Of a stretch of DNA of 64,000 nucleotides, positions 1 through 61,513 are shown one piece after another. The notes beneath the pieces were generated by a model. It was not told the origin of the DNA. It worked only from the letters and a program-made list of their open reading frames with translations, and made no database searches. Origin of the DNA: Apostichopus japonicus (lineage: Eukaryota > Echinodermata > Holothuroidea > Aspidochirotida > Stichopodidae); assembly GCF_037975245.1 (NCBI RefSeq), contig NC_092572.1:11605769-11669768 (forward strand), in the 5' to 3' direction. The translations under genes and the position numbers were made by a program. Position 1 is the stretch's first letter, and every line of letters begins with the position of its first letter.

Positions 1-17
1 TCTTCATTTTCTCTCAG

Positions 18-16593
<16,576 letters not shown>

Positions 16594-30473: not shown

Positions 30474-33400
30474 CTGGATGTGGGGGAAAGAAAGAGAGAA
30501 TTGTTTCATTTAAAAGAGTTTATTGCTTAATTTTAAATTTGAACATCCCCATGCAAGATAAATTAACAAGGTAATTTTGCTTGTGTGATTTTTTCTATGC
30601 CTTTTGATGACCAAAAAGATGCTTTATCACATCTATTTGTACTGACCTGCCAATGTCTGGAAATTAATAAGCAAATCTTTCAAGAATTAATTCTCAAATT
30701 AAAATAAAATAAAATAAAAGTTATTCAATGCGTTCCATTCAATTTAAAATGAACAACAAATTTCACCCACCCACAAAAGTTTTCCCGCAAAGATGTCAAC
30801 CAAACTTGTAAACCAGACAACTAGCAAAAGAAATTTCTTTTTTTCCTTTATTTAAACTGAATTTTTTTTCCCTCTCTTTTCTATACCATTGAAACGTTTG
30901 ATTGAAGATTTGGAAATTTGAGTAAAACTTTTTTTTTTTTTTTTTTTTTTACAAAATCTTTCAAGAATTAATTCTCAAATTAATATAAAATAAAAGTTAA
31001 TGAATGTGTTGCATTCAATTTAAAATGAACAAACAATTTCACCCACCCACAAGTTTTTTGTCTGGCAAAGATGTCAACCAAAATTGTAAACCAGACAACT
31101 AGCAAAAGAGTTTTTTTTCCTTTTTTAAAACTGATTTTTCTTTTTTGTTTCTTTCTTACACCATTGAAACTTTTGATTGAAGATTTGGAAATTTGAGTAA
31201 TTTTTTTTTCTTCTTTTGAAAAAAACTTTTTTGTTTAATTTTTTTTCATTTTTTTTGGATAGAAATTCCTTGAAATGGAATGTGACAAGTCATTCTTAAA
31301 TGAGGACTGCATATCTACCTATATGGTTAACAACACTCACCTGTACAGTAGCTACTGCCATCAAAGTCTGTATCTACCTCTCCCCTGACTGTATCTAGAT
31401 CAGATAGTTCTGATACCGCTGGCATGGATCCACCTTGTTCAGAAATCCCTGCAACAATGGCCAAGATGACAAACAAATTAGATCCACCATTGTGAATGAA
31501 GAAGACATTTTTTGAAATGAAGAATGGATCACTTGGTTAATTTTAAATTTTTATTATTTTCTTTCTTGGCAGAAGTTTCAAATCATTCCAAGTCATTAAT
31601 GCATCAGTATTGCCTTTTCTTTTTCCAAGAGGGTGAAGTGGTGGGGTGGGTGGGTAGAGTGGGTGGGTGGCAGTTGGCGATGATTTTGTTTAGAGTACAT
31701 GATTGAGGTGGGATCAGCGCTTTGTTTGCTTTTTTCTTTCTCTCTTTTTTCAATTCAAGCGTTTCTAATGAGCACAAGAACAGATATCAAGAGAAAAAAC
31801 TGCTTGTCACAGAAAGTGATCTATAAACTGGAAAACATTAAATAATTTATTTATTGGGATTAAATTCTCCACCTTTGATTCTTTGATTGATAAAAAGCAT
31901 ATTTTTGTTGGTATTTAGCAAAATTTGTTCAAATTTTGCTGCAAAACCAGAGATCATGTGCAAAACATGTTGCTTTGAGCCTGAGAAAGAAGCAAGAGGA
32001 AGTGTATGTTTAATGGTATGATGATTCACACTAATTTTGATATTAAGCACCTCTATGGGAGGGGAGGGGGGAGGGGAGGGGGGGTGGGACGGTGACATGT
32101 ACATATTTATACCTGGAGTTATCCTTGGTAGCATAGGGTGACCCTCTTCATTATCTGAGGGTGCTTCGCTCTGAGACATTAAGTCATTGTACTGTAAGAG
32201 TTCTTGTCCTATTTCAGCGTGCCTGGGATCCTCAAAGACCTGTTTCGGTGCTAGATGGTGGCCACCGTTCTCCGACGGGTGGTGGCCGCCGTTCTGCGGG
32301 TAGTGGACCCCTTCCTGCGGGTACTGTCCGTTAGGCCTGGCGATGGGCTGAAATACCCTCCCCGAGGTAGGGTCTATCCTGGTGCCGGGCGGGAGACCCA
32401 CGGGTCCTCCTCCACCCCTGTACGCATCGACATGCGGGAAAGTTCTTTGGTTGTAATGCATGGAGGATGGGTACTGAGGAGGGGGGTAATGCATTGCGGG
32501 TAGCGTCATGTTTTCTTGCGATTTTTGCATGCACTCGTGGCAAGTTACTGGCTGTGAAGGAGGAGGAGGAGTAGGGTACTGCTGCTGCTGCTGCTGTTGT
32601 TGGTGAGGGTGCTGATGATGGTGCGGATGGCTGTGGTGAGATGACTTACTCCCGTTGGATGACCCTGTGTGGTAGTTATATGGTGGAGTTTGCATATGTG
32701 GTGGTACCCTGTTGTCAGTGGGCGGTTCCTCTGGGGGAGGGGGCAGTAAATCTGACCAGGTGTTTGCTGGCCTCTGCTGGTGTTGTTGTGGCTGCTGTAG
32801 ACGCTGTGATCTCTTCTTCCTGTGCGGTTTACTTTTGGCTCCTGCGAAGAAAGAAAATCGATATAAAAAATAATCAGTTTTGAGTCAAAAATTTACATCG
32901 ATCGAAGAAATTAGGATACTGTACGTATTCAGGTTAGATAACGTTTGATAATCTGATAGGAATTGGCCAATTACCCGTGATTACGCAAACGAATTCCAAC
33001 AAAACTGACTTTGTTTATCTAACGGCCTACACGCTTGACAAATCTCATAATAAGTCCATTCCATTCAGAATTTCATTCTGTTTTCTTCTTTCCATTTCTG
33101 TTTTTCAAACAGAGAAACATGTCTATAAATCAATATGACAATTCTTCTTCTTTTTTTCACTTTTACAACATTTTACAATTTTCATGTTACTCCACTAGGT
33201 GTCCAATGTTTCCATACAGATAATACATGTATTCAATTGATGTTGCTCAACAGAAACTTTAATATACATTGCATGAGGGCAGATATGACAAATGCCTTCT
33301 TGTCTTCCACGGTAATCATCACTTCAACTTGCTAAACCAATCCATCCACTATTGATTACACATTTCTTTCTTTTATTATTATCTTATTATTATCTTCATT

Positions 33401-36400
33401 TCTATCAAACAGCATGAGTGAACCACATGCCTTGTTGGTTAGACTCACTGCTTGGTTTACTGGCAGTTCCATTGGGGCAGGGTTGTGATCCAGATGTGCC
33501 CGAAGAACACCCTGTGTCGTTGCTACTGCTACCACATGTGCACTTAGGAGCCGTCGCAAAATGAGTCTGGAAAGAATATAAACAAAGTAAATCAATTAAT
33601 CGATCAATCAATACAGCTATTTGTGATTGACCGCAGACGTCCAAACCATTGCAGAGTTACTCAGAATAAATTGTACAATCGATCACACTAAGATATCAAT
33701 CTCTCCTATTAAACTATCAAGTGATTATTATTAATATTGAATAATTCCACTTACAGGAAAGGAAACATGCCAGCAATTCCAGCGTAATAAGGTTTAACTA
33801 ATCTTTCATATAACATAAAATGTGGACAAAAGTTGTTTTAAATTCTGCTTTATACCAGCAGTACAAACTCAAGCACATAAATCACCACAATGATAAACTC
33901 CAAAAGTCACAAAATAGGATTAATATTCTGCATAACTTTTTTTCTAAATAGGATTGTGAATGAGTGGAACGGTTTGCCTGAGAAAGTTGTACATGCAAGT
34001 AGTGTGAATGGATTTAAGAATGCTTTGGACAAGCACTTTCAGCAGTGTAATCGGGTCGGAGTGTTTGTGTCTTCAGTGTTTTTTTCCTCTTCTATAGGGT
34101 CCTTGATGGGGACTTGTGTTTCCCTCCTCAACCTTTTTTTTCTACTACTATAAACTAAACAAGTATACCATTTTAAAAAAGTTCTTTTTGAATGAAAACA
34201 GGAACAGACCAAGCAAACATGGTAGAGGTATCACAAGTAAGTTGGGCCTTGTAATAAAGCCCAAAACTTTTTCAGTTTGGAAACAGACTTGGGCATAACA
34301 GAAGTCACAGGAAAAGAATGACCAGATTGTTGCAACGGTCCTAGCAAGAGGTGGGCTAGGCCGGGTTCTACATGATTCATATAACTATTTTTTTGGTGGT
34401 AAGCTTCTGGTAGTTGGGGGCAGACAGGAAAATGCTTAAGTAAATTATTCACAGCAGGTAAGGAGTTCCCAATGTAAGACAAAAAAAAAACTTTAATAAC
34501 ATTTTCTTTTTTCTTTCCATTTTACCCCAGAGGCACAGATCTCAGTAAATTTGAAGGTCTTTTAAGATTTTCTTTTCTAAGATTTTTCATCTTAAGATTT
34601 AAGATCTTCATATTGTAGAAGGATTTCTGACTTACATTTTGTGGAGGACACAATTGCGTAGATGCGTACGGCTGAGGGGGGTAGCGTGTTGACGGCCGGG
34701 TTACTGACGATGGTACACTGGTGCATGGGGAGGGTGTGGGGACAATGTGGGTCCTGGGTGAGGTCCTCTTCGTCCACCACTGCGTAGACAGGCGATCGTG
34801 CTCTATGGCCGCTCAGCGTGCTGCTCCCGGAGCTAAGGGTGGCTTGGTTGTGCATCCCTCCCTGGGAGGCATACGAAGGATCTGAAACGACAAATTTGTT
34901 GATAGAACGATGAAATTTAAGAATATTCTGTTTCAAGAATTGAGTGGATGGGACTGTATTATCCAAGTGCTGTATTATCCACAGGCTTATGGTACAGTCT
35001 GATGGTTTGTATGAAATACCAGGAGATGTTATTATTAAAGGCATGATTCTGCGGGTATGAGAAAGTTTTTCTTAAGGTGTGCCAAGTTTGGTAGGATCAT
35101 GATAATCTATATAGTACAGAATGTGTTATATCATGACGTTACTGAACCAGCTAAATATTGAAAAAGAAATAAATTTAAAAAAAAAATAAAGCAAAGTGTG
35201 CAACACTCTTGTACAAATGAACAGGAAGATAGAATAATATGAACAATACGATGCAAGAGAAGAGGAACTGATTTAACAACAATGACAAGAGGGTTAGAGA
35301 AGATTTTAAATTTCAAGATTTTTCTGTGATTAAATCTGTGAATGACATGGAATGAAGAAGATATAAAGAAGTGATTTTAAAATTCAAGCCATAAGTTCAC
35401 TTTTGTTTTACACCAAGTTTGTCACAAAGTCAGTAAATTTGCTTCCACCAAGGGCGGCGGAACCGGGGGGGCACAGGGGGCACGTGCCCCCCCACTTTTC
35501 CTCAGGTTAAAAATGTGCCCTTTTTCTACATAAAAATTGAGGTGTCTCAAGTTAGCAAGAGGCCAGGGAACCAGAATGAACACTCGGGAAGGGCCGTTTC
35601 CGGCCATCTGAGGGGTTTGTAAAACCAAAAAATTTTCTTGTACGCTCCGCGCCAACTGATGGTGGCGCTCCGCTCAGATAGTCGTGCATACAACTTTTCA
35701 AATCCTGGCTACACCCCTGACTGTTTAATGAGTTTCTGTGGGTCAAACTCAAAGCTATTTCGAATGGAAACAATTTGTTAAGATATTAACAAGAAATAAA
35801 CTCTAATTCGGAAGATTCCTATACATTAGCAACTTGTATGATTTCACCTCAGTTTGTCTCAAAAGAAAACTTGTTCCTTGTTTCCCAATTTGAACATTGG
35901 ATATTGCAGTGCTAGTATGCATATTTTCCTTCAGGGGGGGGGGGGGGGGGTGGGCGTTGATGGAGTGATGTGTATACGCAAATAAGATAATACAATAAGA
36001 GTTATAAAGGGTACTAAATATAAGGCTGCATCAGTCCAATTGAATTTCTGCAAAGTGCCCTTTGATGTCGGTGCCCCCCCAGATTAAAAGTGCTTCCGCC
36101 GCCCTTGGCTTCCACACACTGGTAAAATTCTGAGAAATTGATTTTGCATCAAGATTGATGCTGTTTACATTTCCATTATAGAGAGGGTTGTGGTCAATTG
36201 GTGAAGGCAGTGGACTTGTGATATAAGGTTTGCTCAGTACTCTGTGTCTTCGGGCAAGGCACTTTAATATCCATTGCCTCTCTTCACCCAGGTGCATAAA
36301 TGGGGACTTGCTAGGTAACTTGTCAATATTGTTGTGTGCGCCGGTTTGTGGCTGCACCCTATTGGAAGTCCCCCATGGGACACATGGATGTGGTGCACTG

Positions 36401-39400: not shown

Positions 39401-42400
39401 ATGAGTTAAATTGAATTTTGAATGAGCCAGTTTTGTCAATTTGAAGACCCATTCGCTCCAGGAATCAAATTCGAATAATAAAAAGTTTCACTTACAAGCC
39501 GATGCCTTCTGATGTTGGTTCGTAATGTAACGATCCTACGGAGAGAGGGAGACAATGAGATGAATTTGAGATATGTCACCATAAGTTATTACTTGTAAAT
39601 CTTCAAGCAACTACTGAAGAAGATTGAAATACTTGTGATGTAACCATCCCACAGTTGAAAATTCAATGATCATTGCTTGTGTGATAAAACATTTATAAAT
39701 TTATAACGGATCTAGTATTTTCCAATCTCATATCCCCATTTCACACCACCCACCCCCCTTGCCCCCCCCCCTGCCAAGTGCTATTTTAAGTCATCAGGTG
39801 CATCACGTTACCTAGGTACTGTCAAATCTTTCCAGCAGTAACTCCCTATTTATGGTTTTCATTCATCAAGCAGTATTACCTTTTGTAACAACCACAGACT
39901 TCTCGTGCCGTTTCCTACAGAAGACCACCAGTAGAATCACTGCACCGATAAAAGCAATGAGAGTTACGATTCCGACTACCTTGATAATTAGCCCGTTCTC
40001 GTCATCACCGGTCGGAGGTCGTACTGAGGAAGAAGGATCAAAAACAGAGAGAAGGTGAAAATAAAGACTAATGGCAAGGTCACTATGTGTCATGAATATG
40101 CGCATATGTAAATTACCAGCCACCCATTGATTTGAAAATTGAAATCAATAGGGTTAAAAGAACTAAGAATCAGAATGGCCTTGATAACCTTTAGCATCTA
40201 ACGATTTTTGTCCTGAAGTGAAGTGTCGTTATTGGCACGGGGACAGGGACAGGGGCGATGAGTAAATTAATGACCGAACCCGATAAAGGCTGTAGGGTTG
40301 ATCAATCATCAAAGGTTGATCAGTCATCTCCCTTTGTGACTTTCACACCCAGTTTACTGCATAGTATTAAACTCCAATTTTTGAAGAGTCATCTTGACAT
40401 ACTGACAAAAACTACTAACACTGCATGTGCAGCATTGAACCTGTCTTTTATATGATGAAGTGGTAATAACTAAATGTTTTCAAGAAGTCCATCCACGATA
40501 CAGCTTACAAAAGAAGACTATTAAAAGCAAACTGTCAAAGGACTGCTAATGTTCTGACGTGCTGTGTTCCATGCATCGTTGTTCCTGAAAGTGTCTTCAG
40601 AATTTAAGAGTCACAGAGATAACTTCCCAAACAAAATCCTAAGAATTATCTGATTTTCATGATAGAGGATGGCTGAATTATGTAATAACAAATGGACTGG
40701 GTAGGATGTGTTCTGCTTCCTATGTTCTAACTTCCCTTAACTGTATTTGTATATATTCTCTCTCGACTTATTCCACACCATTGCACCTGTTCAACACCAT
40801 CCTTGCAATTTCTTCCCTTAACTGGATTTGTATATATTCTCTCTCTAATTATTGAACACCATTGTACCTGCTCAACACCATCCTTGCACTTTCTTCCCTT
40901 AACTGGATTTGTATATATTCTCTCTTGACTTATTCAACACCATTGCACCTACTCAACACCATTGCACCTACTCAACACCACACTTGCACCCCAAAATAAC
41001 ACTTCCCTGTTAACTATATTCAAGCCTTTAATCACATGTACACATCAATTACACCCTTATTGTATCCTTTTGGTTATATGACCACAACTTACTTGGGGTA
41101 CTTGGTGGCATCTGTATGACATAAGGTGCACTGAGAGGTCCCATGCCAGCTGAGGTGTGGGCAGCCACAGATACTCTGTACCATGCAGATGGTGTCAGTT
41201 GGGTGATACGGGTCACCACCACGATGGGGTCGTTAATGGTCTTATTCTGGCCTGCATTGCTGCTGTTACTCAAGCAGAAGACAGAGTACCCGGTCACGAT
41301 ACCCTTGACCCGACTGGCAGAGGGAGGGGTCCAACTGACGATGAGGGATGTGGACCCATTAGGGCTGACCTGGACAGAACTTGGTGATACCCTGGGAACT
41401 GTCAAGTGAGGTAATCCAATGTTCATTTTAGAATACATGTATGAATGACATCTTTGCATTGAATTTACAACTTATAGCTATACTAGGGATAAATGTAACC
41501 CTCCAATAGAAGCACACATTATGTCCTTCTTTCATCACAGACAGATCAAAGGAGCAGTGCAGCCCTGGGTTTGTTGAAAGCAACTCTCATGTAATGGGAG
41601 GGGGAGGGGGAGGGGGAGGGGGGTGGTCTGGGATACTCTTACCCAAGGAAAGTAGAATTTTAAAAAGGGGAAAGGCTGCATCCTGAGACATATTTCGACT
41701 ATAAGCTTAGGACTACAGCTAGGTCTTCACCTAAGGTTGTGCTATACTTTAGAATTTTTAGGTGACAGAGGTTGAAGAAGGGATATGCACCACCACCCTG
41801 GACCCACCCCTCGCCTACCAACTGATTCAGGCTTCCCCATTCATCAATTACCTTACAGCACATCACTTAGTACTTACTATCTTCAGCTGTTACTCCAATG
41901 AGAGGGTCGCTCTCTGTACCCTTATAGAGGCCATTGAAGGGTGTAACTACGATGGTATATGAATTCCAGGGATCAAGGTCTGTAAGGACCAGACTGCGAC
42001 TATCTGTGACTGTCATGATCTTTTTCTTGGTAATCTGGTAAGTTGGATAGTAAGAGATGTGGTACCCGTCGATGTAGGCTGCGTAACGGTTCACCTGCGT
42101 GATTAAAGAAGAAAACGATCACGTATGAAAACAAACTAAAATACGGACAGATATCCGGAAAAATGAAGATATGTCAGTGTTATACGGACAGATATCCGGA
42201 ACAATAAAGATATGTCAGTCAAGGTAATACCAACTAAAATACGGACAGATATCCGACACAATAAAGAATGTCAGTCAAGGTAATACCAACTAAAATACGG
42301 ACAGATATCCGACACAATAAAGAATGTCAGTCAAGGTAATACCAACTAAAATACGGACTGATATCCGGAACAATAGAGATATGTCAGTCAAGGTAATACC

Positions 42401-45400
42401 AACTAAAATACGGACTGATATCCGACACAATAAAGAATGTCAGTCAAGGTAATACCAACTAAAATACGGACAGATATCCGACACAATAAAGAATGTCAGT
42501 CAAGGTAATACCAACTAAAATACGGACTGATATCCGGAACAATAGAGATATGTCAGTCAAGGTAATACCAACTAAAATACGGACTGATATCCGACACAAT
42601 AAAGAATGTCAGTCAAGGTAATACCAACTAAAATACGGACAGATATCCGACACAATAAAGAATGTCAGTCAAGGTAATACCAACTAAAATACGGACTGAT
42701 ATCCGGAACAATAGAGATATGTCAGTCAAGGTAATACCAATTAAAATACGGACAGATATACAGTGGGTCACATGATTTTTCCTTGCATGGATTTTATTTT
42801 CCTTACAGTTCTTTTGTTACATGCTCATCAAGCCCACAGCCTAAGTTAGCTCCTGTGGATTTTGAGCATTACTTCTGAGGGAGGTGTGTGTGTGTGGGGT
42901 GGGGGGTGGGGATATGGTGTGTCTGGTGGCTCAGTCTTCATGGAAGATCCTGGGCCATGGTCCTTAAATGTTCCTGGCAGACGATGATTTTCATGAGCAT
43001 AATCTTATTTTACTAGAAAAATCGTTAGTGTTTATCTTCTATACATACACTATGAAGTACTACTACATGCACAAAAACTTCATAAGAAAATTATCAATTT
43101 TAATTATCATCAATTCCATTTCATCTTTTACAAAAAACGACGGAAAATTTCCAAACATTAGAAAATTGTTTAAATTTTTCTGTAGAAAACTTACACTCCA
43201 TGTGAGTTGAAGTTTAGTAGCACTGACTGGATAGGCACCAGTGACGGCCAGTCCACACAAGTTCAATTTGCTCTCCAACAGGGAATTGGGGATGGACGGA
43301 GGGGGTGCCAGATGGCCCTCTGGTAACGTCCTCACCGCCTCTAGTGAGGACTCGGTGCCGTCTCTCTCCCTGTGAAACGGCTGCACCGACACTGTGTAGT
43401 CTTCGTCTGGTATCAGACCTGTCACGATGTGAGAACTGTCTCCCATCACTGTCTTGAGGATGGAGTTTCCCTGCCCGGAACTTGGACGGCATTTGATTTT
43501 AAACCCGTCCAACGTCACATCGGAGCGTGAAATCTAGGAAATATAAATATTTGTGTTTACTAGTTATCTGCGGACAGAATTACACCTTGGTTTGACGCGA
43601 AGTACTCACGAACTGCGAGTCAAATAAAAAGAGCCTGGTTTTCTTTAAGGGAGAAAGAAAGGCTTATGATCGGATGCGTCGAAGCAAACCCTACATAGAA
43701 AGTAAAGCAATTTCACAAGAAAAATAATTTACTCAAAGGTTGACTTGCAATAAATAAAAGATAATGTCCATTAAGGTCGACTCTGCTCTGATGCCTGAGA
43801 GAGTGAAAGCTACATGTCATTAAGATGCCATAGTTAATTGCACTCTTGGCAAGGGAAGGCTAAAAGTGAGAACATTTTTCAACATTTGTAGAATGACCTT
43901 GAGACACACATCCTCTCTAAACCTTGAATCTGCTCTAAATAACATCCTGTCAGAAACACTGACGAGGAAACCACTTAGTTTACTCTCATAGCAAAATAAA
44001 TATTGAGGAGGGCTGTGGAGGGGGGAAGGAAGAAGGGGAGGGAGGGATGGGAAAGGGGAATATTTTGACCATCTAACTTCCACAGGCAACTCACACATCC
44101 TCTAATTTCTTCCATGGACACTACCTTCAAACACACTCAAGATTGTTTAACCAAATCAAGATTTTATCACTATCCATACCAACAAAGAGCATTTTATTTT
44201 CAAAATTAAATGGTATATGGTTCTTCCATAGAAAGGGCCATTACTTGTGGAACTAGTCCAGAAGATCAAAGAAGTCGCACATTGTTGCAACAAACCATTG
44301 GCTCCATACAAATGTGACCTATAACCTTTGGTGGTGACTATGTGTACACAATACAAACTTATCATTCCCCACAAGAATGAGGGATTGATACAAATTGGAT
44401 AGTGTCTGTTGATGTATCTAGAACAGATCTATCCTTTGACCTCAGAGTGGTAAAACTCTTACTATTAAATTCAACAGGGGCACTTGCTGGCCCTCTATGG
44501 AATGAACAGCAGTAGGGAACAGTAAAGCATGCAGGTTTTTTTTTTTTTTTTAAAGGAAACAAAATGAACTAATGTTTCAAACATCCAATTGGGGGGATTG
44601 CTAATGATTATGCATTATTTTGTTAATGCAAATGCATGTCCCTGTGAATACACCCTTAAATTGATGCCTAACTACATGTGACGTCAGGTGACGATAATAA
44701 ATAGTCCTAAGACCGATGTTTCCGACTTGCTTACCTCCCACTGTAGAAGGATGGACGTTGGACTCAGAGGGACAGCTTTGGTGATGTCCACAGAAACTGA
44801 ATCGATGAAGGCTGTTCCTTGGTCATCCCCTGTATAAGCAGCTGTTAAAACAAGAAAAATAATATAATGATTGATAGCAGGAAACAAAATAGCAAAACAA
44901 ATAAAACAGCACAACCTCCCAGGGCTCCTTTCCTCCCAAAAATGACAACAAGTCGATCGTGTTTACGTACATAACATGACTGAAGAATGGAAAACGTGTG
45001 CTTGTATCTTTACAGCTGATGAACAGTTCTCCCTTCTCCACCCAACCCCCCCCTCCCCAGCCTCCTCCCCCATCATCTAGCTATCCCCTATGGAGTATTA
45101 TAAGCAATGCAAGTTCTCCAAGAGTAAAGAAATGTAATACACTCTATTAGTTTAGCTGCAAACTTTTGTCAGCTTTCTATAAAAACTGACTCAAAAACTT
45201 TTCTGCCAATTCTAACAAGACTTTAACAAATATTGTCCACCTTCAACGAGCACATTTCAAAATTTGTTGTAGAGAGACTGACAGTCCTACGGTCAGTAAA
45301 ATTTGAATGAAATCTTTTCTTTCATTAATGTGATCACCTCCCATGAGTATTCCCATGCTGCAACGTATATCTAAGAGGGACTGATTTTATGTTAAAAACT

Positions 45401-48400
45401 TTTTCTTTTTTTATTCTTGAAAAGTATCTCCTTCTGATTTCTGTCGTACTTAAGTGGCTTGCTTGCCCCAAGGATCAGATTGTGAATATTCTTTCTCCGA
45501 AGAGGAGATATTTAATCAAGAGGGGGAAAAGATCTTATCTCTCTCTCTCTCTCAAGCTTACACGTAGATGCAAACTAAGATACTACTTTTTATCTCTGTA
45601 TTTAATGCTGCTGTTGTCTTTATATTGCTGGAGTATGCTGAGAAATTTATTTCATTTCGTTCCAAACCTGTTCTTTGAAAGTCATCTGCGATGGCAAATG
45701 CAATTCAGACTAAATCACAGAATATAATCAACTGCTCTCTGTTTGTATTAAGTAGTAAGTGCCCTTAAAAATTGCTAATTTATGATTGAACTTGCCTATA
45801 AAGTTTCATACATGAAAAATATATTTCCGAAATAGAATTCCGATAGGTATTACAATCTTCAAAAGTCTGGATAATATGCCAAAGAACAATCTATAATTAT
45901 TTTGTACTTCAGAATAGGCCAGTTCATCTTGCAAAAGGAGTTTGAGGTGATGTCAATTCCAACATGGCCATCTACCTACACCTGTCAATTAACCCATACC
46001 CCCACCCATACCCCCCACCCCACCCCCCCACACACATATTAATGAAATGTTTGAATTTTATTACTTAATATCACCTCAGTCCACTGTCAGTTATTCTGTT
46101 ATTTGGTGGACTACATTAACTAATTACATTGCCATCTTCCATTTTATCTTCCTGTCTTAAAAGTCAACTTGGGGGGCACTATCAGACTTTGAAAATATCT
46201 ATGCAAAATTTGCTGCTTCTGAGCATGCTCAGTAAGTTAACTCTCAACTCACCCAATGTCACGACAGGACTGCTGACTCTACTTGGAATGCCGACGCCAT
46301 TAGAGTTAATACCCCTCGCTAAGAAGACATACGGTGTCCCTGACTGCAGTCCAGTCACTACATGAGTTGTAGCTGCTATGATGCTATCCACCTTCACCCA
46401 TCCTATCATGAAACAGAAAATATACAATACATTCTTAAGCAAAAGCAATGTGTGATGGGAATGACTTGACGATTTGCTTCAAAATACCCAAAAGATGGGG
46501 GGGGGGAGGTAATTCAATATACAAATGGACAACTATTAAAGACAAGTAAACACTTTTAGTATCATTATCAATTTATTCACCTGTGATTCACATACCCCCC
46601 TCCCCCTCCCCGGCCCCCACCTGCTCTCTACTCGAGATAATAAAAAATAATGACATAATCACTGTGGCTTCTTGTTGTCTCTAACATTCCCAAGTACAAT
46701 ATCTAAATACATGCATCAAATCAACAGTAACAGGCAACTTTAGACGCAACAGACAGTAGCTTATAGAGACAGGGGAGCGGATGATTTCAAAATTCTTACA
46801 AACCACAGAGGTCCGTCTATTAATTCGTTACATTCTATTTTTAAATAAAAAATAAAATAAGAACCAAACAGAATAGGAAAGGAAAGAAAATGTCAAAGGA
46901 TTCCTGAGGACAGGTGTTGGGTGTTATATATATACCTAATGCTGTGTTAGGTGTAAAGTACTCTAGCCTGTACGATGTAACCGGTGGCCTTCCCGCAACG
47001 CCAGCGGCAGGACTCTCCCAACTAAGCTGGACAGAGTTCCGGGTGACGTTGATGGCCGATAAGGATGAAGGGGCCCCCGGAAGATCAGGGATGTTGGGAG
47101 GTGGTTGAACCAATGAGGGCTGGTTGTTTCCTAGGTAGAAATAACAGGGGAAAAAAAAACATATAACAAGTTGAAAAGAGAAAGACCGAAATCATTACCA
47201 GCTCTAATAGTAGTAGGCCCTGAAAATGAGATATTTGTTCATCACATGGGATATCCAAACTTTGAGTGAGGCATTACAAAGGTTTTAAGCACATAGAGCA
47301 AGAATTAGCAAAATAAATTCCAATTTTTCTGAAAGGTACACACCAAACCGAAAAGTACAGAAATAGAACAATAGCTATAAATGGCTTCTAAATAATTCCT
47401 TACCTGCAGGAGATATTTGTTCTAAGTATAATAAAATCGCTAAACCGGTGAGATCAAAATGATGTGTGCTTGTTATCCTCTGGTCATTCGTATTTTTAGA
47501 TTTTGACTTTTATCTTTTTACTTTCCAAAATACTTTGAAGAGTTCTTTCTCCTGGAGGTCGTGACCTATTCTTTGAATTATTCCCAGGCTTACAGGAAAG
47601 ATTAAACATGAGCATAGAATGTATCTGCGATGGCAAAACACTTGTTTGATTATACAAGTACCTCTTACTGTTTGAATGTAAGTGACCTTTTCTTTTACAT
47701 TTTATTATTACACTATTACTTTATTTATGGCCAGCGATAATCTGATGCTGGGTTTTACCCTTCCCTTCCCTTCCGCCGCCCCCCCTCCTTTCGAAAGTTT
47801 TCTAAAATACATTTATGTGCACTCCTTTAAGACTTTAACACCCCCCCCCCACACCCATATGCAAGTTGACCAGATTTAAGTTTCATTCTTGATAACACAG
47901 CTTTAACTTTTGCATGCAAGATTTTGGAACCACCCCTCCTTGAGTATAAATTATTGAAATTGTTGAAATTAAATTGAAAAGATAAATTGCAGGCCAAACA
48001 CTTACTGATGACTGTCAAGGAGGCAGACCAACTGCTCTCCCCGCTAGCGTTTGTTACCATGCAGCTGTAAGAGGCGGTGTCCGCAGGCTGGACCGACAGG
48101 ATTCGCAAAGTATGCGAACCATCCACCGAAAATCTGACACAAAGAAACAAGACAGGAATCAGGAGAGATCGACGCTAAAGACATATTCAAACACATCTGA
48201 TAAATTTATGAGAATATGAAATTTATTTTGTTCTAGTTTTAAAACTTCCCTTGGCACATGTGCAAGACCACCGGGCGACACACAATGTATCTTCCCTTTA
48301 GTGTCAGTTACTTCATAGTTCTGCAAGTTTATATAAATATCGTTTGAGGTTAAAACTAATGTGCTTTGTGAATATTTTAGAATGTTCCATATTTGGAGTA

Positions 48401-51400
48401 TTAATACTTCCGAGAATTGGTTAATACACTCGTTGAGATTTTGGTGAAACTCTTTGATAGATTGGTAAAGTCGTAATACCTTTTACTGTAAGAACAAAAT
48501 AATAATAGTAATATATACTTTGAAAAAATTGTACAAATTGTTGACTTCTCATACTGCAAAAATCTGTTATTCCAGAGATGGAAGATTGGAATCTAAGAGG
48601 TTTATTACCTGTTCCTTTCTTGGATGGGTTCCCCCTCCTTGGTCCACTGGACTTCACCTACATCGTCCACTAACAAGCAATAGAAGACAGCAGTTGACCC
48701 TTCCATTAATGTCTGGTCAAACGGTCCTGTTCTTATAACTGGCGGTGGAGAGAGACTTGACCCTACCAAAGTGAGAACCAAAACCAAGATATTGTTTCTC
48801 GTGTTATCAAGTAGAAAATGTGATCCAAATGCCTACATCGTATTAGGTTCTTCCAAATTTTAGAGAGACGGATGAGGGCAGGGGTAATGAATGACGGATG
48901 GAGGGAGGGGTAAAAATGATGGATAGAGGGAGTTCGGGTAAGAATGACATATGGATCGAGGGAGGGGTAAGAATGAGTCAGATAACGGTAGAGGCACAGA
49001 GGCAGAGTAGTGGGGGGGGTATGGAAACTCTTGTGCAAACCTATAAAAGTGAGGGAGAGTGACTGTTAGAGGGAGTAACATTTATATTCTGTTAATTAAC
49101 CTTGAGATAAAAATTCTAAACTGTTTTCCTACGACAACAGAGACGGTAACTGTAACTTTGAGACACGTTATTGACAATTTGATGATAACATCGCAATTAG
49201 CACTACTCAGTGTTCGGTTCCTCGAGTGTATCTGTTATCTCGTAATTGCTGCGTCTCTATTACAGCTGTTAGATTTTATTATATCCAAATGTGAATATCA
49301 TCCGACGACAGAATGAGACTCGTGACACATTGCTATCTCCTCCGACAATTACCCCAGGGTTTATTCGGCTTAACGAAACAAGCTTTTAAGAGGATGCGTT
49401 TCTCTGTTCTGCAGGATTCCATTTCAATTTTTCTTATTTCTTTTCTTTTGTTTGAATAACATGAGAAACCTGAGTCATTCAAGATTCATCCTATTAACCT
49501 TCACATCAGAAGTGTACCGTTACTCCAAAACAGATGGAGGGTCCCTTCTAACGTCTGTTCTTTATCATTAGAACATGATGCAATTACTGACGACTCCAAT
49601 GGTTCTATTTTAAAACAAATCTTTTGTTTCTTGGTCTAGACTTTACTCATTAAATGTAAAATAAATAAAGGACTTTCCAAGGTCTTCCAAACCATTCGTA
49701 CACAAAACAAACAGAATGTGTCGGACTAGAGAGAAACCTTTTGTGTGAAATGATCAAAAGTAAACCTTGAAACTTTCGAAGCAAGAAAAAAATAAAAAAT
49801 AAATAAACAAACAGTATTGTAGAATACTGAGTTATCTAAACTCTGCACATTCTTCTATTTTCCCCATTTTTGGAATTATTTTTCACACTGAATGGTTACG
49901 TAACAGATGTACGACATTGTCCGTTCTTACCAGGAAATATAAAACTTAAATATTTTACCACATGGGGGGAGGGTCTGACTCACCTATGACCCTGACAAGA
50001 GCACTAGCTTGGACGTTCCCCGACCCACTGTTGGTGGAACAGACGTAGGTCCCCTCGTCATCCTCCTGCGCTCCAGAGATGTGTAAGGTACCCTGGCTGT
50101 CCACCCTGAAACGACCCCTCGATTCCCCCGACTGCAGTGTTAAACCCTGGAAGAAGAAAAGTTTTAAAACAAAACAGTTATTACTGATATCCTTTACGTT
50201 TGATCCCTGTTGATATACATACCAAACCCCAGTCCGGGCAATTAAGAGTTGGCTGACTTAGCATGTTAATTTATTTATCTGCTCGTTAACTTTCACCCCA
50301 ACGAAATCATCTTAAAATGGTGTATTAATTTGATTGGATATCAATTATGTTATTCTCAGTCGCGCTACGGACCTGGCAAAATCATCAAATGGACGCAGAT
50401 ACAGACAGAAAGATACAAATTTCTCCACACAGCGACGAATGATTTCAAGTAATTTCAACCACTCGTGTCGTTTTATTGGTCGATGGAAGACCTGAAGAAG
50501 ATTACTTTTTTTTTCAACCTGAGAGTAAAATTCCTTCCTCAACTTTTGCCAGAGCTACTACTACTACCGACCACTATTTTATCCAAACCATTCGATACGG
50601 AGGGACGGTCACGTTCTCCTTTTGAAGTTCTCCAATTTTCTAACACTTGAGGTTTTAAGTAGTCCTTGTATCCAGCTTCCTTCCTCATGACCTAGTTTCC
50701 TTTCAAAATACCCTTTAAAATACAAAAATACTTTGTCCCTCCTAACAAGAACAACAAATCAATTCTCTATCTATTTTCTTACAAAACAGTCCTCTTTTTT
50801 CTTTTTTCCTATTTTTTTTCTTTCTCCTTATTTCATTCATCCTGCTGTCTTTACATATCAAACACAGTAAGAGCTTAAAGACTCTTTCCCGGGACTCAAG
50901 TTTTCCTCGAAAATCAATTCTTCTCCAGTTGTGTTTATTTTTAGACCTTTCCCCATAACTAGGCATAATGTCTCTCGCTGTACAAGTATCTTTGGTTTCT
51001 TCACCGTCACCTTTTTTTTATTGCGCGATAAAAGTTCTAACCGTACACTGAACACCTGAAAAATCGATCGTGTTAAACGCTTGGAAGACTAGTACAACAA
51101 AAACATGAATAAAAAAATATTATGGATTCCTTTTATATCAGATATGAATTTATATCACCAAAAATTTATACATTACATTAACCCTGCAAAGGTTTGGATA
51201 GGTGGTCAATAATGGATGGGTGGGTTGGCCAATGTTTAACCATCGCAAATGAATTTTGAATAAACAGGATAAGACTGGCATATATTTGTGCTTCTTTACG
51301 TGCTACAACTCAAATTGGCTTAGTCCAGAAAGCACAAATTGACAAAGACAAACTTTAAAGTGTTTTTAACTTTAACAGGTGTGCAAGTGCTTTTAAACAG

Positions 51401-54400
51401 TTTCAGATAAATTCATATTATTTTATGGGGAGGAGAATAAAAAGACTGGCATATGTAAGTTAAGTGCTCTACAACTTCAATTGACCAAGAATCGGCTGAA
51501 TAAGCCATGAAATTATGGAAAATGACAAAATATTTCAATGTTTTTTTTTTCTAGCCTTGACAGGTATCAGATTTTATTAAATATTACTATTATTTATTGT
51601 CATTATAACGAAAACACTGCAAAGTATATGTATGTATATATGAAGTCCCTATACTCATACTTGTATTCGTACTTTTAGTACTCAAGGCATTGTAGTATAT
51701 AGTGGTAACGACTAGTACTAATGATGCACCCTTACTTGTGTTTAGAACATTGTACTCATTTTACAACTCACACCGATTAATTACAATTGTACTTGTACTC
51801 ATGCTGTTGTACTCACCACTTCATCATTCTGCCAGAAGACATCAGGAGGTGGGTTTCCTCCTGCCTCACAGTGAAGTGCGACGTTATCATCTACGGACAC
51901 GGTCTGGTCCCTGGGAAGGACATTGAAGGCAGGATCATCTACAGAAGAAGAAGAAGAGAAGGTAGTGTTTAACAATGTGCATATTATTCTGATTGGTGGA
52001 ACCAGCATCAGAGATGCCTTGGGAAGAGGAGAAGGGGGAGGAGGAGGAGGAGGAGGAGGAGGGGAGGAGAGGAGGGGGTGGAGGAGGGGAGGAGGAGCGG
52101 TGGAGGTGGGGGAGGGGGTAGTTGAAGAGGGCCTAGGGGAGGGGATAGTTGGGTAGTAGTAGGAGTAGGGAGGTTGGCGGTAAGGTAAAGTCTAACTTTT
52201 GGGGAAGGATTATTATAGGAGCAACCATTTCAATTTGCTTGCTTAAGATTGTACTGTTGCTCTCGTTCCATAATTGAGGGCCAGGTGAGACAAGAAAACC
52301 AATTCCCGATAGTTTACCTTCCCCTCCCCCTTTTACCTGCCTGTAGCCTTTTGTATGAATCAAATAAATCCATTCCATAAAAACTTTGTCTTCAAGTCCT
52401 TGTCCATTGATCAAGTTTTCTGATTAATATGTTCTCTTGTACACACAGATTTTGATCTACGTACTAATCAGGCCATTAGGACTTCAACCTGGTTATCCCT
52501 CGCTTGGTTTATACCTGGAACAAAATGCCCATTTTCCGGGTATCACATAATCAATGAAGTAACCTAAGCTGTTTTCCTTATCTTAGCTAATGAAGCAGCT
52601 GCAGCAGGAAAAAACTTCACAAAAGAACTTGATGAGTAAGACAAGGAAGAAAGTCTCGGTTACTTCTTAAATCACGTGGTACCCAGAACATCGCCGTTTT
52701 TGTTCCCGGGTATAAACCCAGCGGGGGCTTTACCAGGTTGAACTTGTAATGGTGGCTTTGCATTAAGAACCAACAGATAATCTCTCTTAACAAGAAAAAT
52801 AAATAAATAGATAAATAAAGCTTGCAACTTTGCAGGTAGCTCTAACTTTGACAGCCAGTGGTATACCGTCATCAAATTGCACTCAAATTTGTTGTCACGT
52901 GTGGTGCATGCACATGGCTAATAACTGTCATGGATGTACATAAAACACGGATGCCTTTCAGTGCGCTGCGAGCCACGCGGCATAATTAAGCAAGAAAACA
53001 TCTTATTACGTTTCCCACGAGCTCTTGCTCTTCTCTGGAAGGAAATTGTTGTATTGTATTAAACTAGCCCCCTTTCAAAATGCCACCTGTAATGGACTGT
53101 GTTTTAATGCACTTTTAACGTCATCAAACTGTTCTCTCTTCTGTTCTTTCTTCATCTTCTTCTTCTCCTACTTAGTCTTGTCTACTCTTTTCATCCTGCT
53201 GCGCATGTAGTCAAAGGAATTGAAGCTCCATCAGAAACCTGTGCCAAAGTGATCTAACAATTAAAGGATTTTGCAGAAGATTACCTTTGACAAGTCTGTT
53301 TCCATTATAGTCTACTAATGATTTCCTGAGAAGATCTTAGGGAAGTTATCATTCAGCTTGATAAGTACCCCCCTGGTGATGTTTCGACTTTAATGTATCC
53401 TCTCATTCGCAGAGTTTATATATATATTTGAAGACTTAATCTGTAAATGGGGGCAACTTAATGAATTTGAGGACAAGCATTATTACCACCTGTTACATAA
53501 CAAGGAATAGACTAATGCTCTCCAGGGTAACAAAGAATATGTAACTGTTCTCTTAGCTACAACCTGCCGCATATGAACAGGGTTGTGCAAATGTTCAAAG
53601 CCATAGGCTGACATGGGTGGAATAAATACAAGAAATTCCCAGAAAGATATTTCCAACGCGAAATGAAAATTGCTCCATCACTAACGGTCGATAAGGAACA
53701 AGATTTATCCGTAAACTGTCCAACATGAGAAATTTATAATGTAGGTATGAGTGGTTAATACTACAGTTCTGTGAACAAATTATATATTAATATATAATAT
53801 ATTAATCACATTAATTAATCGAAGGGGAGATACAATTTTTGAAGCCTGTCAAATTTCCTGCATATCAATACAAACTGTAAGCCTGTTCCTACTGTAAGCT
53901 ACAAATATGACCCTAACTGAAGCATTGGTACGAGAGGTCGTGTTCTTATCGTCTTGAGTATATATTGTACATTACAATTATCCCCAACCTGATGTACAGT
54001 GAAAGCCATACTCACACAGTGTGGGTTCATCAGTATTCAACACTTAAATGACCAACTGATCATGTTAAACTGAGCTATAGTTAAAAAACGTAGACAATTC
54101 ATGCTTGGAGCTGCCTCAATATACCCCCAAACCTATAGCTTAATGAATTTAAGAAGTTAAGAACAATCCCTCCCCCAGCCCCCCCCCCCCAATACAGTCA
54201 TTAAGTATACTGAATTATAACAACCTGTCTTATTATTTAGTGTGTAATCAATTCACAGTCCAGACAGCCAAAAGAGGGCCAAACTTTTTTGGGATAAAAT
54301 GGATAAAACAATTAAATGAGAATGCAAGAGCAGCGCTGTGCACCCACAGTCAGACTTATTGCATAGATTGAGAATAAGTCCTTTGTCAGAACAGTTAATG

Positions 54401-60400: not shown

Positions 60401-61513
60401 GTAGATCAGAATCGCCTCACGCTGATTGTCCCCAGAAATGATTCGATGGATTTTTCTCTCCTCTTTCGTAAAGATTTTGATAAAAGCAGTGAGTTACCCG
60501 ATATGCCCATCAATGCCTTCCACCAATGTTTGTCCATTTGATCTCCGGAATGAAAGCAGCCAGCGTACACCAGGGACTGCATGCAAAGACCCGGGCTCAA
60601 GAGTAAAATCAATATTGATTTTGAGGTATGCAACAGCATCTTTACCTCTCTATATCTATCTCTCTCTCTCATGTTTGTGCCAAAATGTTGAATAAGAAGA
60701 CACAAGGTGGATGGATCTCAGAAAACTGTAAACCATTTGGCCATGAGATTTGTTGTTTAAAGTGATGAAGAATCGGAGAATCGCTGCTGCTGTAGAGATG
60801 TTTTACACAATTTTTTTATCTTTCTCTCTCTCTAAAGAAAAACCTCCACGAATAAGGAAATACGACAGACACGCCGAAATCATTTAGTATGAAAGCACCT
60901 TGGGGTTTCAGGATATCAAAGGGAGAAGTATGTTGATAAGACAGTCACAGGTGAAAACGGAGAATGCGGGATTGGAGTTGGCTGTCGTAGGTGGGGTGGG
61001 GGAGTGGAGCAGTGGGGTGGGGGAGTGGAACAGGGGTGGGAAGGCTGAGGATATGGTTCTCAGGGACACCATTCAGCATTTGTCCAAAGCTGAGTCCTGA
61101 CACCTAAGTTGGCTTGTTTTCCACTGCAGATAAACTTAGCATCTTCATCCTCCTTTAATCCTCCCCATGTTCCTGAACACCATCCCCTCCCCTCTCTCCC
61201 TCCTCCCCCCTCCCGTCCATCCCCTTACTCATCTTGTGTATATAGTTACTTCTTCACCTATCATTAACCAATCACAAAAAATTCCATCGACATTATCAAA
61301 GATCCCAACCAAACCCTACCCTGGACACCCTACAACCCCCTCCCACCCTCCTCCTCTTTTCAAGAAAAGGACATAAATAGCTTACCACCAATCCTCAAGG
61401 TTGCAGCCTCCTGGTAGACACCATGATCTTTCTTCACCACACAGTGGTAATTTCCTGCATCTTGAATGTGAACGTTCCTGATTTCAAGAGAACCGTCATC
61501 TTTTATCTCATGT
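30292..61513 (-). CDS. ROBO: Roundabout (Robo) axon-guidance receptor, from Ig3 to stop; 5' part outside window
   Basis: Nineteen minus-strand exons (61513-61386 down to 30473-30292) give about 1265 residues. Robo receptors bind Slit through Ig1-2 and steer axons and cells at the plasma membrane. Seen in order: second half of Ig3, Ig4, Ig5, FN3-1, FN3-2a, FN3-2b, FN3-3, a TM helix, then a long cytoplasmic tail. Landmarks match vertebrate Robo: DPAFNVLPRDQTVSV (Ig4), PPPVIRTGPFDQT and SGESSWSASL (Ig5), YRVSVAAHTSAGMGPLSAP (last FN3), a GSS-SGTSGSQ Ser-rich stretch before TWSDLLPPPPEEPP (CC2-like, the Ena/VASP-binding type), and SELSDLDTVRGEVDTDFDG. Four FN3 domains instead of three is unusual. 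Phases agree throughout except between 34636 and 33566, where a short exon is probably missing. The 3' end may instead be spliced to 29534-29521. Confidence 0.94.
30674..31220. repeat. Tandem duplication, two units of about 281 bp
   Basis: caagaattaattctcaaatt occurs at 30681 and 30962, and the following 240 bases agree closely (cacccacccaca, gatgtcaacc, gtaaaccagacaactagcaa, accattgaaac, gattgaagatttggaaattt), separated by T runs. It lies in a ROBO intron. Confidence 0.85.
31341..31448 (-). CDS. ROBO: ROBO exon: acidic tail segment
   Basis: Acceptor attgttgcag, donor gtgagt, phase 1 in and out. It encodes GGSMPAVSELSDLDTVRGEV then DTDFDGSSYCT; like the SDLETDVADDD region of vertebrate Robo. 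Confidence 0.85.
32113..32841 (-). CDS. ROBO: ROBO exon: CC2-like LPPPP motif and His/Gln/Pro-rich tail
   Basis: Acceptor ctttcttcgcag, donor gtataa, phase 1 in and out, 729 bases. It starts AKSKPHRKKRSQRL, then TWSDLLPPPPEEPP (about 32720-32760; CC2-like Ena/VASP-binding motif), a His cluster, eight or so Gln (CAG/CAA run at 32580-32603), PTPPPPSQP, and an acidic end QSEAPSDNEEGHPMLPRITP. Confidence 0.9.
33449..33566 (-). CDS. ROBO: ROBO exon: Ser/Cys-rich tail segment
   Basis: Acceptor atattctttccag, donor gtgagt, phase 0 in, 1 out. The frame (CTCGSSSNDTGCSSGTSGSQ) was chosen because it joins the next exon in frame and resembles GSSTSGSQ of vertebrate Robo just before CC2. It does not fit the phase of the preceding exon (1), so something lies between. 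Confidence 0.7.
33938..34045 (+). mobile_element. LINE 3' fragment (reverse transcriptase ORF C terminus)
   Basis: The frame reads FFLNRIVNEWNGLPEKVVHA then SSVNGFKNALDKHFQQ, the R-x-V-x-x-W-N-x-L-P ... F-K-x-x-L-D pattern common at the C terminus of CR1/Jockey-type retrotransposon proteins. The catalytic domains are absent. It lies opposite to ROBO, in an intron. Confidence 0.65.
34636..34881 (-). CDS. ROBO: ROBO exon: tyrosine motifs of the cytoplasmic tail
   Basis: Acceptor gtcgtttcag, donor gtaagt, phase 1 in and out. It contains HRARSPVYAVVDEEDL and SAVRIYAIVSSTK, which may correspond to the CC0 and CC1 tyrosine motifs of Robo; that assignment is tentative. Confidence 0.82.
35449..36107. 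mobile_element. hAT-like MITE, 659 bp, with perfect 8-bp target duplication
   Basis: Ends CAAGGGCGGCGGAA and its exact inverse TTCCGCCGCCCTTG. The octamer GCTTCCAC flanks both sides (35441-35448 and 36108-36115). Both hallmarks fit hAT. No transposase ORF. G/C runs (ggggggcac, gtgcccccc) lie inside both ends. It sits in a ROBO intron. Confidence 0.9.
36185..36530 (+). mobile_element. tRNA-derived SINE
   Basis: Starts with a tRNA-like A box (TGGTCAATTGGTGAAGGCAG), followed by the body words tcttcgggcaaggcac, cattgcctctcttcaccc and ggtgcataaatggg, which I associate with SINEs of marine deuterostomes from memory. Ends are not exact; no target duplication found. Confidence 0.55.
38952..39178 (-). 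CDS. ROBO: ROBO exon: cytoplasmic tail segment
   Basis: Acceptor ttttaaacag, donor gttagc (weak), phase 2 in, 1 out. It encodes QQPLPPIPTDDAESCHGNIS and TVGRYWPAAHTPLNHDQ. Reading on without splicing gives an immediate stop (ggt tag). Confidence 0.78.
39496..39535 (-). CDS. ROBO: ROBO exon: 40-base cytoplasmic micro-exon
   Basis: Acceptor ctctccgtag, donor gtaagt, phase 1 in, 2 out. It encodes GSLHYEPTSEGIG; the frame then fits both neighbours. Robo tails often begin with short exons. Confidence 0.75.
39880..40023 (-). CDS. ROBO: ROBO exon: transmembrane helix
   Basis: Acceptor cttcttcctcag, donor gtaata. An acidic linker TGDDENG is followed by a hydrophobic helix (IIKVVGIVTLIAFIGAVILL and on) and basic CRKRHEK. 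Confidence 0.92.
40731..40990. repeat. 81-bp minisatellite, about three units
   Basis: cttcccttaact recurs at about 40731, 40812 and 40893, each followed by gtatatattctctct and caacaccattgcacct; the last part has a shorter 20-bp duplication. In the ROBO intron 5' to the TM exon. Confidence 0.85.
41093..41398 (-). CDS. ROBO: ROBO exon: last FN3 (FN3-3 of other Robos)
   Basis: Acceptor cacttgacag, donor gtaagt, phase 1 in and out. A whole FN3 in one exon: SLIVSWTPPSASRVKGIVTG, YSVFCLSN, YRVSVAAHTSAGMGPLSAPY. Confidence 0.94.
41878..42094 (-). CDS. ROBO: ROBO exon: FN3-2b, second half
   Basis: Acceptor taatcacgcag, donor gtaagt, phase 0 in, 1 out. It encodes VNRYAAYIDGYHISYYPTYQ through YKGTESDPLIGVTAED, closely like vertebrate FN3-2 (TVDRQPQFIQGYRVMY). 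Confidence 0.92.
42113..42770. repeat. 57-bp minisatellite with higher-order structure, about 11-12 units
   Basis: Units of 55-58 bp carry atacggac(a/t)gatatccg, then gtcagtcaaggtaatacc. Variants alternate in a fixed order of three (see findings). It lies in the intron directly after the FN3-2a/2b exon. Confidence 0.93.
43195..43533 (-). CDS. ROBO: ROBO exon: end of FN3-2a fused to start of FN3-2b
   Basis: Acceptor atatttcctag, donor gtaagt, 113 codons, phase 0 in and out. It holds the second half of one FN3 (LDGFKIKCRPSSG to RDGTESSLEAVRTLPE) and the first half of the next (APPPSIPN to KLQLTWS). The exon runs from post-Trp to post-Trp, so it spans a domain border. Confidence 0.92.
44735..44841 (-). 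CDS. ROBO: ROBO exon: FN3-2a, first half
   Basis: Acceptor cttgttttaacag, donor gtaagc, phase 1 in, 0 out. It encodes VSVDITKAVPLSPTSILLQWE and stops just after the B-strand Trp. Confidence 0.9.
46253..46402 (-). CDS. ROBO: ROBO exon: FN3-1, second half
   Basis: Acceptor catgatag, donor gtgagt. It encodes TTHVVTGLQSGTPYVFLARG then INSNGVGIPSRVSSPVVTL, matching the end of vertebrate FN3-1. Confidence 0.92.
46936..47130 (-). CDS. ROBO: ROBO exon: FN3-1, first half
   Basis: Acceptor tctacctag, donor gtatat, phase 1 in and out. It encodes PDLPGAPSSLSAINVTRNSV, QLSWESP and VTSYRLEYF. Confidence 0.92.
48006..48133 (-). CDS. ROBO: ROBO exon: Ig5, second half
   Basis: Acceptor ctttgtgtcag, donor gtaagt, phase 2 in, 1 out. 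It encodes FSVDGSHTLRILSVQPADTA then SYSCMVTNASGESSWSASLT. Confidence 0.93.
48609..48762 (-). CDS. ROBO: ROBO exon: Ig5, first half
   Basis: Acceptor actttggtag, donor gtaata, phase 1 in, 2 out. It encodes SPPPVIRTGPFDQTLMEGST and the core Cys/Trp (FYCLL, VQWTKEG). Confidence 0.92.
49984..50146 (-). CDS. ROBO: ROBO exon: Ig4, second half
   Basis: Acceptor ttcttccag, donor gtgagt, phase 0 in, 1 out. It encodes RFRVDSQGTLHISGAQEDDE and GTYVCSTNSGSGNVQASALV. Confidence 0.93.
50147..51816 (-). other. ROBO: ROBO intron between the Ig4 half-exons
   Basis: AT-rich; no exon seen. About 51650-51810 has loose tacttgtact-type repeats like those of the minisatellite at 15110. Confidence 0.45.
51817..51938 (-). 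CDS. ROBO: ROBO exon: Ig4, first half
   Basis: Acceptor cttcttctgtag, donor gtgagt, phase 1 in, 0 out. It encodes DPAFNVLPRDQTVSVDDNVA then LHCEAGGNPPPDVFWQNDEV. Confidence 0.93.
52020..52135 (+). repeat. Purine tract (GGA-rich), C/T-rich on the ROBO transcript
   Basis: About 110 bases of ggaggagg and ggggag runs with almost no pyrimidines. On the minus strand it is a long polypyrimidine tract about 80-200 bases upstream of the acceptor of the ROBO Ig4 exon. Confidence 0.85.
52477..52757. mobile_element. Long foldback (arms about 115-125 bp, short loop)
   Basis: The left arm has ttcaacctgg, ggtttatacc, gaacaaaa, gggta-cac, gaagtaacc and ttccttatctta; the right arm has the same words inverted in the same order. 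The loop is about 52596-52630. Probably a palindromic MITE; no target duplication identified. In the ROBO Ig3-Ig4 intron. Confidence 0.75.
55928..56282. repeat. (ATACT)n microsatellite, about 355 bp
   Basis: A nearly pure pentamer array (tatac/tactа-type unit) with scattered tgtac, tttac and acac variants. In the large ROBO intron. Confidence 0.95.
61386..61513 (-). CDS. ROBO: ROBO exon: Ig3, second half
   Basis: Acceptor gtttttttcag, donor gtaagc. It encodes HEIKDDGSLEIRNVHIQDAG and NYHCVV, aligning with RYEIRDDHTLKIRKV of vertebrate Robo Ig3. The preceding exon is not in the window. Confidence 0.9.

Follow-up and report, generated by a model that had tools for sequence, protein, structure and literature searches.

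The Robo layout of five Ig and three FN3 domains (5+3) is described as nearly fixed: the available part of PMC7580999, with which that of PMC5919748 agrees, names silkworm Robo1a/b and vertebrate Robo4 as the sole known deviations, all of which lack domains and are still called Robo. In the accessible text of PMC7535936, Robo is drawn with three FN3 domains, its extracellular organization is called similar across metazoans, and seven Robos are modelled, including a sea urchin Robo for which that text gives no FN3 count. In this study, we closely examined a 64-kb stretch of the Apostichopus japonicus genome (64,000 nucleotides of contig NC_092572.1; here called the window and numbered from its first base) that carries, on its minus strand, a gene of the Robo family of axon-guidance receptors. 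In all likelihood, the FN3-2 module of this gene has been duplicated in tandem, giving the order Ig5, FN3-1, FN3-2a, FN3-2b, FN3-3, and transmembrane segment. The elements of this account that computation establishes are the four FN3 domains, the FN3-2 affinity of both copies, and an intron common to the two.

FN3 domains of the Robo-family gene

Twelve exons with AG/GT splice sites were placed on the minus strand, from 61513 down to 39880, in one stop-free frame; since they were chosen from open frames, the shared openness is partly by construction. N-terminal first, they encode half an Ig domain (Ig3), Ig4, Ig5, four FN3 domains, and a transmembrane segment. FN3-1 is divided between two exons of phase 1-1, at 46936..47130 (splice sites, frame, Pfam fn3) and 46253..46402 (splice sites, match to Robo2 FN3-1). 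The following exon (44735..44841, 107 nucleotides, phase 1-0) holds the linker and the A and B strands of FN3-2a up to one residue past the Trp, and is separated by a phase 0 intron of 1201 nucleotides (43534..44734) from a symmetrical exon of 339 nucleotides (43195..43533, phase 0-0) with the remainder of FN3-2a, a long linker, and the A and B strands of FN3-2b. The phase 0 intron within FN3-2b (42095..43194, 1100 nucleotides) is about half filled by a tandem array of 56-base units (42182-42759; 169-base higher period, 98% matches). The remainder of FN3-2b (41878..42094, 217 nucleotides, phase 0-1) and the fourth FN3 domain (41093..41398, phase 1-1, with a second in-frame donor at 41102), the counterpart of Robo FN3-3 in position and sequence, complete the stack.

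When scanned singly, all four domains passed the Pfam fn3 (PF00041) cut-off (gathering score, 25 bits), with 55.6, 42.4, 42.7, and 56.4 bits. When the six FN3 exon intervals were moved at random along the minus strand, none of the 20000 resulting sets stayed open. Downstream of the last FN3 domain, exon 40023-39880 is in frame and encodes a single transmembrane segment, seen by eye as a hydrophobic run. The count of FN3 domains is four, and exactly three is a trait characteristic of Robo, though not a defining one. A first-pass annotation of this DNA had reported four FN3 domains in a Robo-type gene, and six spliced exons in one open frame, with every domain over the cut-off, bear it out. Its span for the two middle domains, 41878..44841, is exact, 44841 being the acceptor of FN3-2a and 41878 the donor of FN3-2b, and its account of the 339-base exon as running from Trp to Trp agrees with two B-strand Trp residues 113 residues apart. 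It had set the internal introns in phase 0 and directly after the Trp; the phase is correct, but the introns lie one residue further on, after QWE and TWS. It had also proposed a longer membrane-proximal ectodomain; a lengthening, of 113 residues, is seen, but the extra domain has other FN3 domains on both sides and does not adjoin the membrane. Five introns, located near the copies and ahead of the transmembrane exon, yielded no additional phase-compatible exons (at least 60 nucleotides, a multiple of three, with polypyrimidine and donor filters).

To assign the domains, hidden Markov models (HMMs) built from human Robo domains were used (FN3-1 from Robo2 alone, FN3-2 and FN3-3 from Robo1-3). 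The first FN3 domain scored 61.0 bits with the FN3-1 HMM and is identical to Robo2 FN3-1 at 39 of 98 positions, and the fourth scored 63.2 bits with the FN3-3 HMM (41/89 identical to Robo2 FN3-3). FN3-2a scored 35.4 bits with the FN3-2 HMM versus -0.3 with FN3-1 and 7.9 with FN3-3, and FN3-2b 33.9 bits versus -0.8 and 2.4, respectively. By profile, these values support an FN3-2-like character of both middle domains.

Searches against PDB chains point in the same direction. With the joined FN3 region as query, human Robo2 was aligned twice, FN3-1 plus FN3-2a to residues 507-667 and FN3-2b plus FN3-3 to residues 636-821; the two alignments overlap, so that FN3-2a and FN3-2b each draw on the beginning of human FN3-2. 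Titin chains totalled higher in this search, with many FN3 domains summed. A profile of FN3-2a and FN3-2b, evaluated over the best 60 of 136 matching sequences, matched Robo2 FN3-2 as a single domain at 47.5 bits (chain 1ujt, 47.7). Among the matches listed, the best other single-domain chain was an engineered consensus FN3 at 32.4 bits, followed by CDO at 31.6; the PTPRD single-domain chain 2dlh reached 30.4 bits, whole contactin-4 chains reached at most 33.4 bits, and four other chains with printed domain scores had no domain above 24.1 bits. Multi-domain fibronectin and PTPRD chains had higher totals (59.5, 51.4, and 49.1 bits). Within a panel of 26 FN3 domains, FN3-2a and FN3-2b were each other's best match, with FN3-2 of Robo2 and of Robo1 next for both. 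They are identical at 27 of 79 ungapped positions (34%), have a shorter C-E stretch in common, and resemble each other more closely than they do human FN3-2. A long linker precedes both, as it does FN3-2 in Robo2.

Some results qualify a derivation from FN3-2. A fibronectin/tenascin HMM outscored the Robo FN3-2 HMM for FN3-2a. A phylogeny of the 26 domains, named in the first-pass annotation as a check, joined FN3-2a and FN3-2b (support 75/28), but a clade of the pair with Robo FN3-2 is absent from the best tree, in which the pair is nested in a fibronectin/tenascin group (85/84, not starred). The GTES motifs that had been put forward as a mark of duplication are present (RDGTESS and YKGTESD); as evidence they are weak, since similar patterns stand at the same site of other FN3 domains in the panel, such as GPGPESS in PTPRF. 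The HMM result, the low support for the pair, and its grouping with fibronectin-type domains would fit an exon-shuffling event that brought in one middle domain from a different FN3 gene. We consider such an insertion improbable in view of the mutual best match, the Robo FN3-2 domains ranking next for both, the Robo2-like linker ahead of each, and an intron at the identical column and phase; a tree constrained to unite both domains with Robo FN3-2 was not rejected (approximately unbiased test, p-AU 0.404). The tandem FN3-2 duplication proposed in the first-pass annotation is thus supported by FN3-2-like profiles, by the closest relationship of the two copies within the panel, and by the common intron.

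Shared intron and origin of the two copies

In the alignment of FN3-2a with FN3-2b, both introns follow column 32, and both are in phase 0. By our own arithmetic (a single internal intron in each domain of ~75-107 codons, three phases), the chance of such an exact coincidence is ~1 in 225 to 1 in 320. The introns flanking the FN3-2 pair are in phase 1, those within it in phase 0. The ancestral FN3-2 module probably consisted of two exons bounded by introns of phase 1, phase 0, and phase 1, and a tandem copy of such a module would preserve the frame. The phase 1 intron expected between the copies may have been lost, or the breakpoints may have been located inside exons; fusion of the FN3-2a tail to the FN3-2b head would then yield one exon of 339 nucleotides.

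No DNA similarity beyond chance was detected between the copies, in exons or introns (best E value for the FN3-2a versus the FN3-2b intron, 0.56), which indicates that the duplication is old and not an assembly artefact. A duplicated haplotype or misread exons could be suspected for a gene known from genomic sequence only, but the divergence of the copies at the nucleotide level, the single frame across 12 exons, and the closed state of all shifted exon sets make an artefact hardly credible. The age of the copies, with 34% protein identity and no similarity left in DNA or introns, would also suit an old Robo state with four FN3 domains that was retained here and reduced elsewhere. This history appears very unlikely, as FN3-2a and FN3-2b are closer mutually than to human FN3-2 and have the shorter C-E stretch in common, and as published Robos are described as 5+3 in the available parts of PMC7580999 and PMC7535936.

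We also analyzed what exon skipping would do to the duplicated module. When all contiguous sets within the six FN3 exons except the whole set were skipped, 10 kept the frame, and only skipping of the 339-nucleotide exon removed exactly one FN3-2 copy. The predicted product contains a complete hybrid FN3 domain of FN3-2a and FN3-2b with 44.2 bits for fn3, no worse than FN3-2a (42.4) or FN3-2b (42.7), so that one splicing choice could convert the receptor from 5+4 to 5+3. The 339-nucleotide exon may therefore be a regulated cassette, with a three-FN3 form when skipped and a long form when included, a reading that supplements the duplication and is compatible with it. Its splice sites look strong by eye on either side, favouring routine inclusion; any duplication with an internal phase 0 intron automatically produces the same phase 0-0 symmetry; and 41.0 bits were also reached by the reverse hybrid, so that the ability of a hybrid to fold does not prove that it is used. 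For an exon read from genomic DNA alone, we regard regulated use as possible but rather unlikely. Similarly tentative is the idea that the ectodomain switches between 5+4 and 5+3 by this Trp-to-Trp skip, with a hybrid FN3-2 rebuilt, as a gain-of-domain Robo that tunes trans regulation or reach.

Remaining parts of the gene and the window

Upstream of the FN3 stack, the second half of Ig3 is encoded at 61386..61513 (Pfam I-set, 28.8 bits; cut-off, 23.7), with splice sites and frame in agreement, and the rest of the Ig region would be located further upstream, for the most part or entirely past base 64000. Ig4 is composed of a first half at 51817..51938, placed by splice sites and continuous frame, and a second half at 49984..50146 (I-set, 28.8 bits; in frame). 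The numbers Ig3 and Ig4 are presumed from resemblance. The halves of Ig5, at 48609..48762 and, in frame with the rest, 48006..48133, reached 60.1 bits for I-set when joined, and Ig5 plus FN3-1 aligned as a single stretch to Robo2 residues 406-605.

The juxtamembrane and transmembrane exon (39880..40023) was placed by its splice sites and frame. In the gene model (41093-40023), only 15 residues lie between the end of the last FN3 domain and the transmembrane helix; the juxtamembrane region of fly Robo1 is given as 46 residues in the available part of PMC7580999. The 15-residue spacing could mean that the stalk is short where an extra FN3 domain is present, or that an exon was missed. The intron before the transmembrane exon contains an 81-base tandem repeat (40731-40962, 2.9 copies), which is open on the minus strand because its period is a multiple of three.

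Two further minus-strand pieces may belong to the cytoplasmic part. The coding stretch 32113..32841, open to 32113 and with a tentative 3' boundary, harbors WSDLLPPPPEEPP within a frame of 345 codons, the longest among the open frames listed for the window; we take WSDLLPPPPEEPP to resemble the Robo CC2 motif. At 34636..34861, a possible exon of uncertain frame, two frames compete: the one with PYASTQL is open only from 34812 or less, whereas its rival is open over the whole interval, lacks PYASTQL, and carries the tyrosine motifs VYAVV and IYAIV instead. PYASTQL, a presumed CC1 likeness that may be due to chance, was initially read as CC1, a reading weakened by the competing frame. A Pfam scan of the pieces with WSDLLPPPPEEPP and PYASTQL gave no match.

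Elsewhere in the window, a neighbouring gene on the plus strand (2-13500) resembles an Ig/FN3 receptor tyrosine kinase. Five of seven scanned pieces passed the Pfam cut-off (Ig, 59.4 bits; FN3 at 4411-4677, 38.1; kinase, 25.3, 38.0, and 33.4), and another Ig (28.2) and a hand-joined kinase piece (16.8) stayed below the cut-off. A transmembrane-like run was noted by eye near 7400-7735. A TATAC-type pentanucleotide array occupies 55932-56282 (70.6 copies, 84% matches).

Possible function and comparison with known receptors

FN3-2 of fly Robo1 is reportedly required for inhibition by Robo2 but dispensable for repulsion itself, which makes regulation a likelier target of an additional FN3-2 than Slit binding. 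The extra 113 residues (one FN3 domain and its linker, between FN3-1 and FN3-3) would act mainly as a spacer and as a second FN3-2-type surface, with the Slit-binding Ig end on one side and the membrane-proximal FN3-3 on the other, and the Ig and cytoplasmic signalling parts would be left as in other Robos. By analogy, we expect that the receptor tolerates a fourth FN3 domain and that this domain influences spacing and regulation rather than Slit binding. A natural gain of this kind would show that a one-domain change in the distance from the Slit-binding end to the membrane is possible. It would also provide a test case for ectodomain-conformation models of activation and for the fly result on FN3-2 in regulation by another Robo.

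Among the open-licence literature matches listed, as judged from titles and the beginnings of abstracts, no report of a four-FN3 Robo was found; unreported database entries may well exist. A Robo with an additional FN3 domain is a modest gain and apparently unreported so far. Searches for relatives matched a pattern in 6 stretches of viral contigs and 45 of bacterial and archaeal genomes; no match was confirmed, in keeping with the animal nature of the gene.

The gene resembles PTPRF, PTPRD, and the contactins in its tandem FN3 stack on Ig domains, but these receptors match the profile of the two copies more weakly (2dlh, 30.4 bits, versus 1ujt, 47.7; contactin-4, at most 33.4). With vertebrate ROBO1, ROBO2, and ROBO3 (5 Ig plus 3 FN3), it has in common the FN3-1 and FN3-3 matches, the alignment over Ig5 and FN3-1, and the transmembrane region that follows, and it differs from them in having two FN3-2-like domains in place of one FN3-2. 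Vertebrate ROBO4 and Bombyx Robo1a/b, according to the available part of PMC7580999, likewise depart from 5+3, but these receptors lack Ig and FN3 domains, whereas the present gene has one FN3 domain more.
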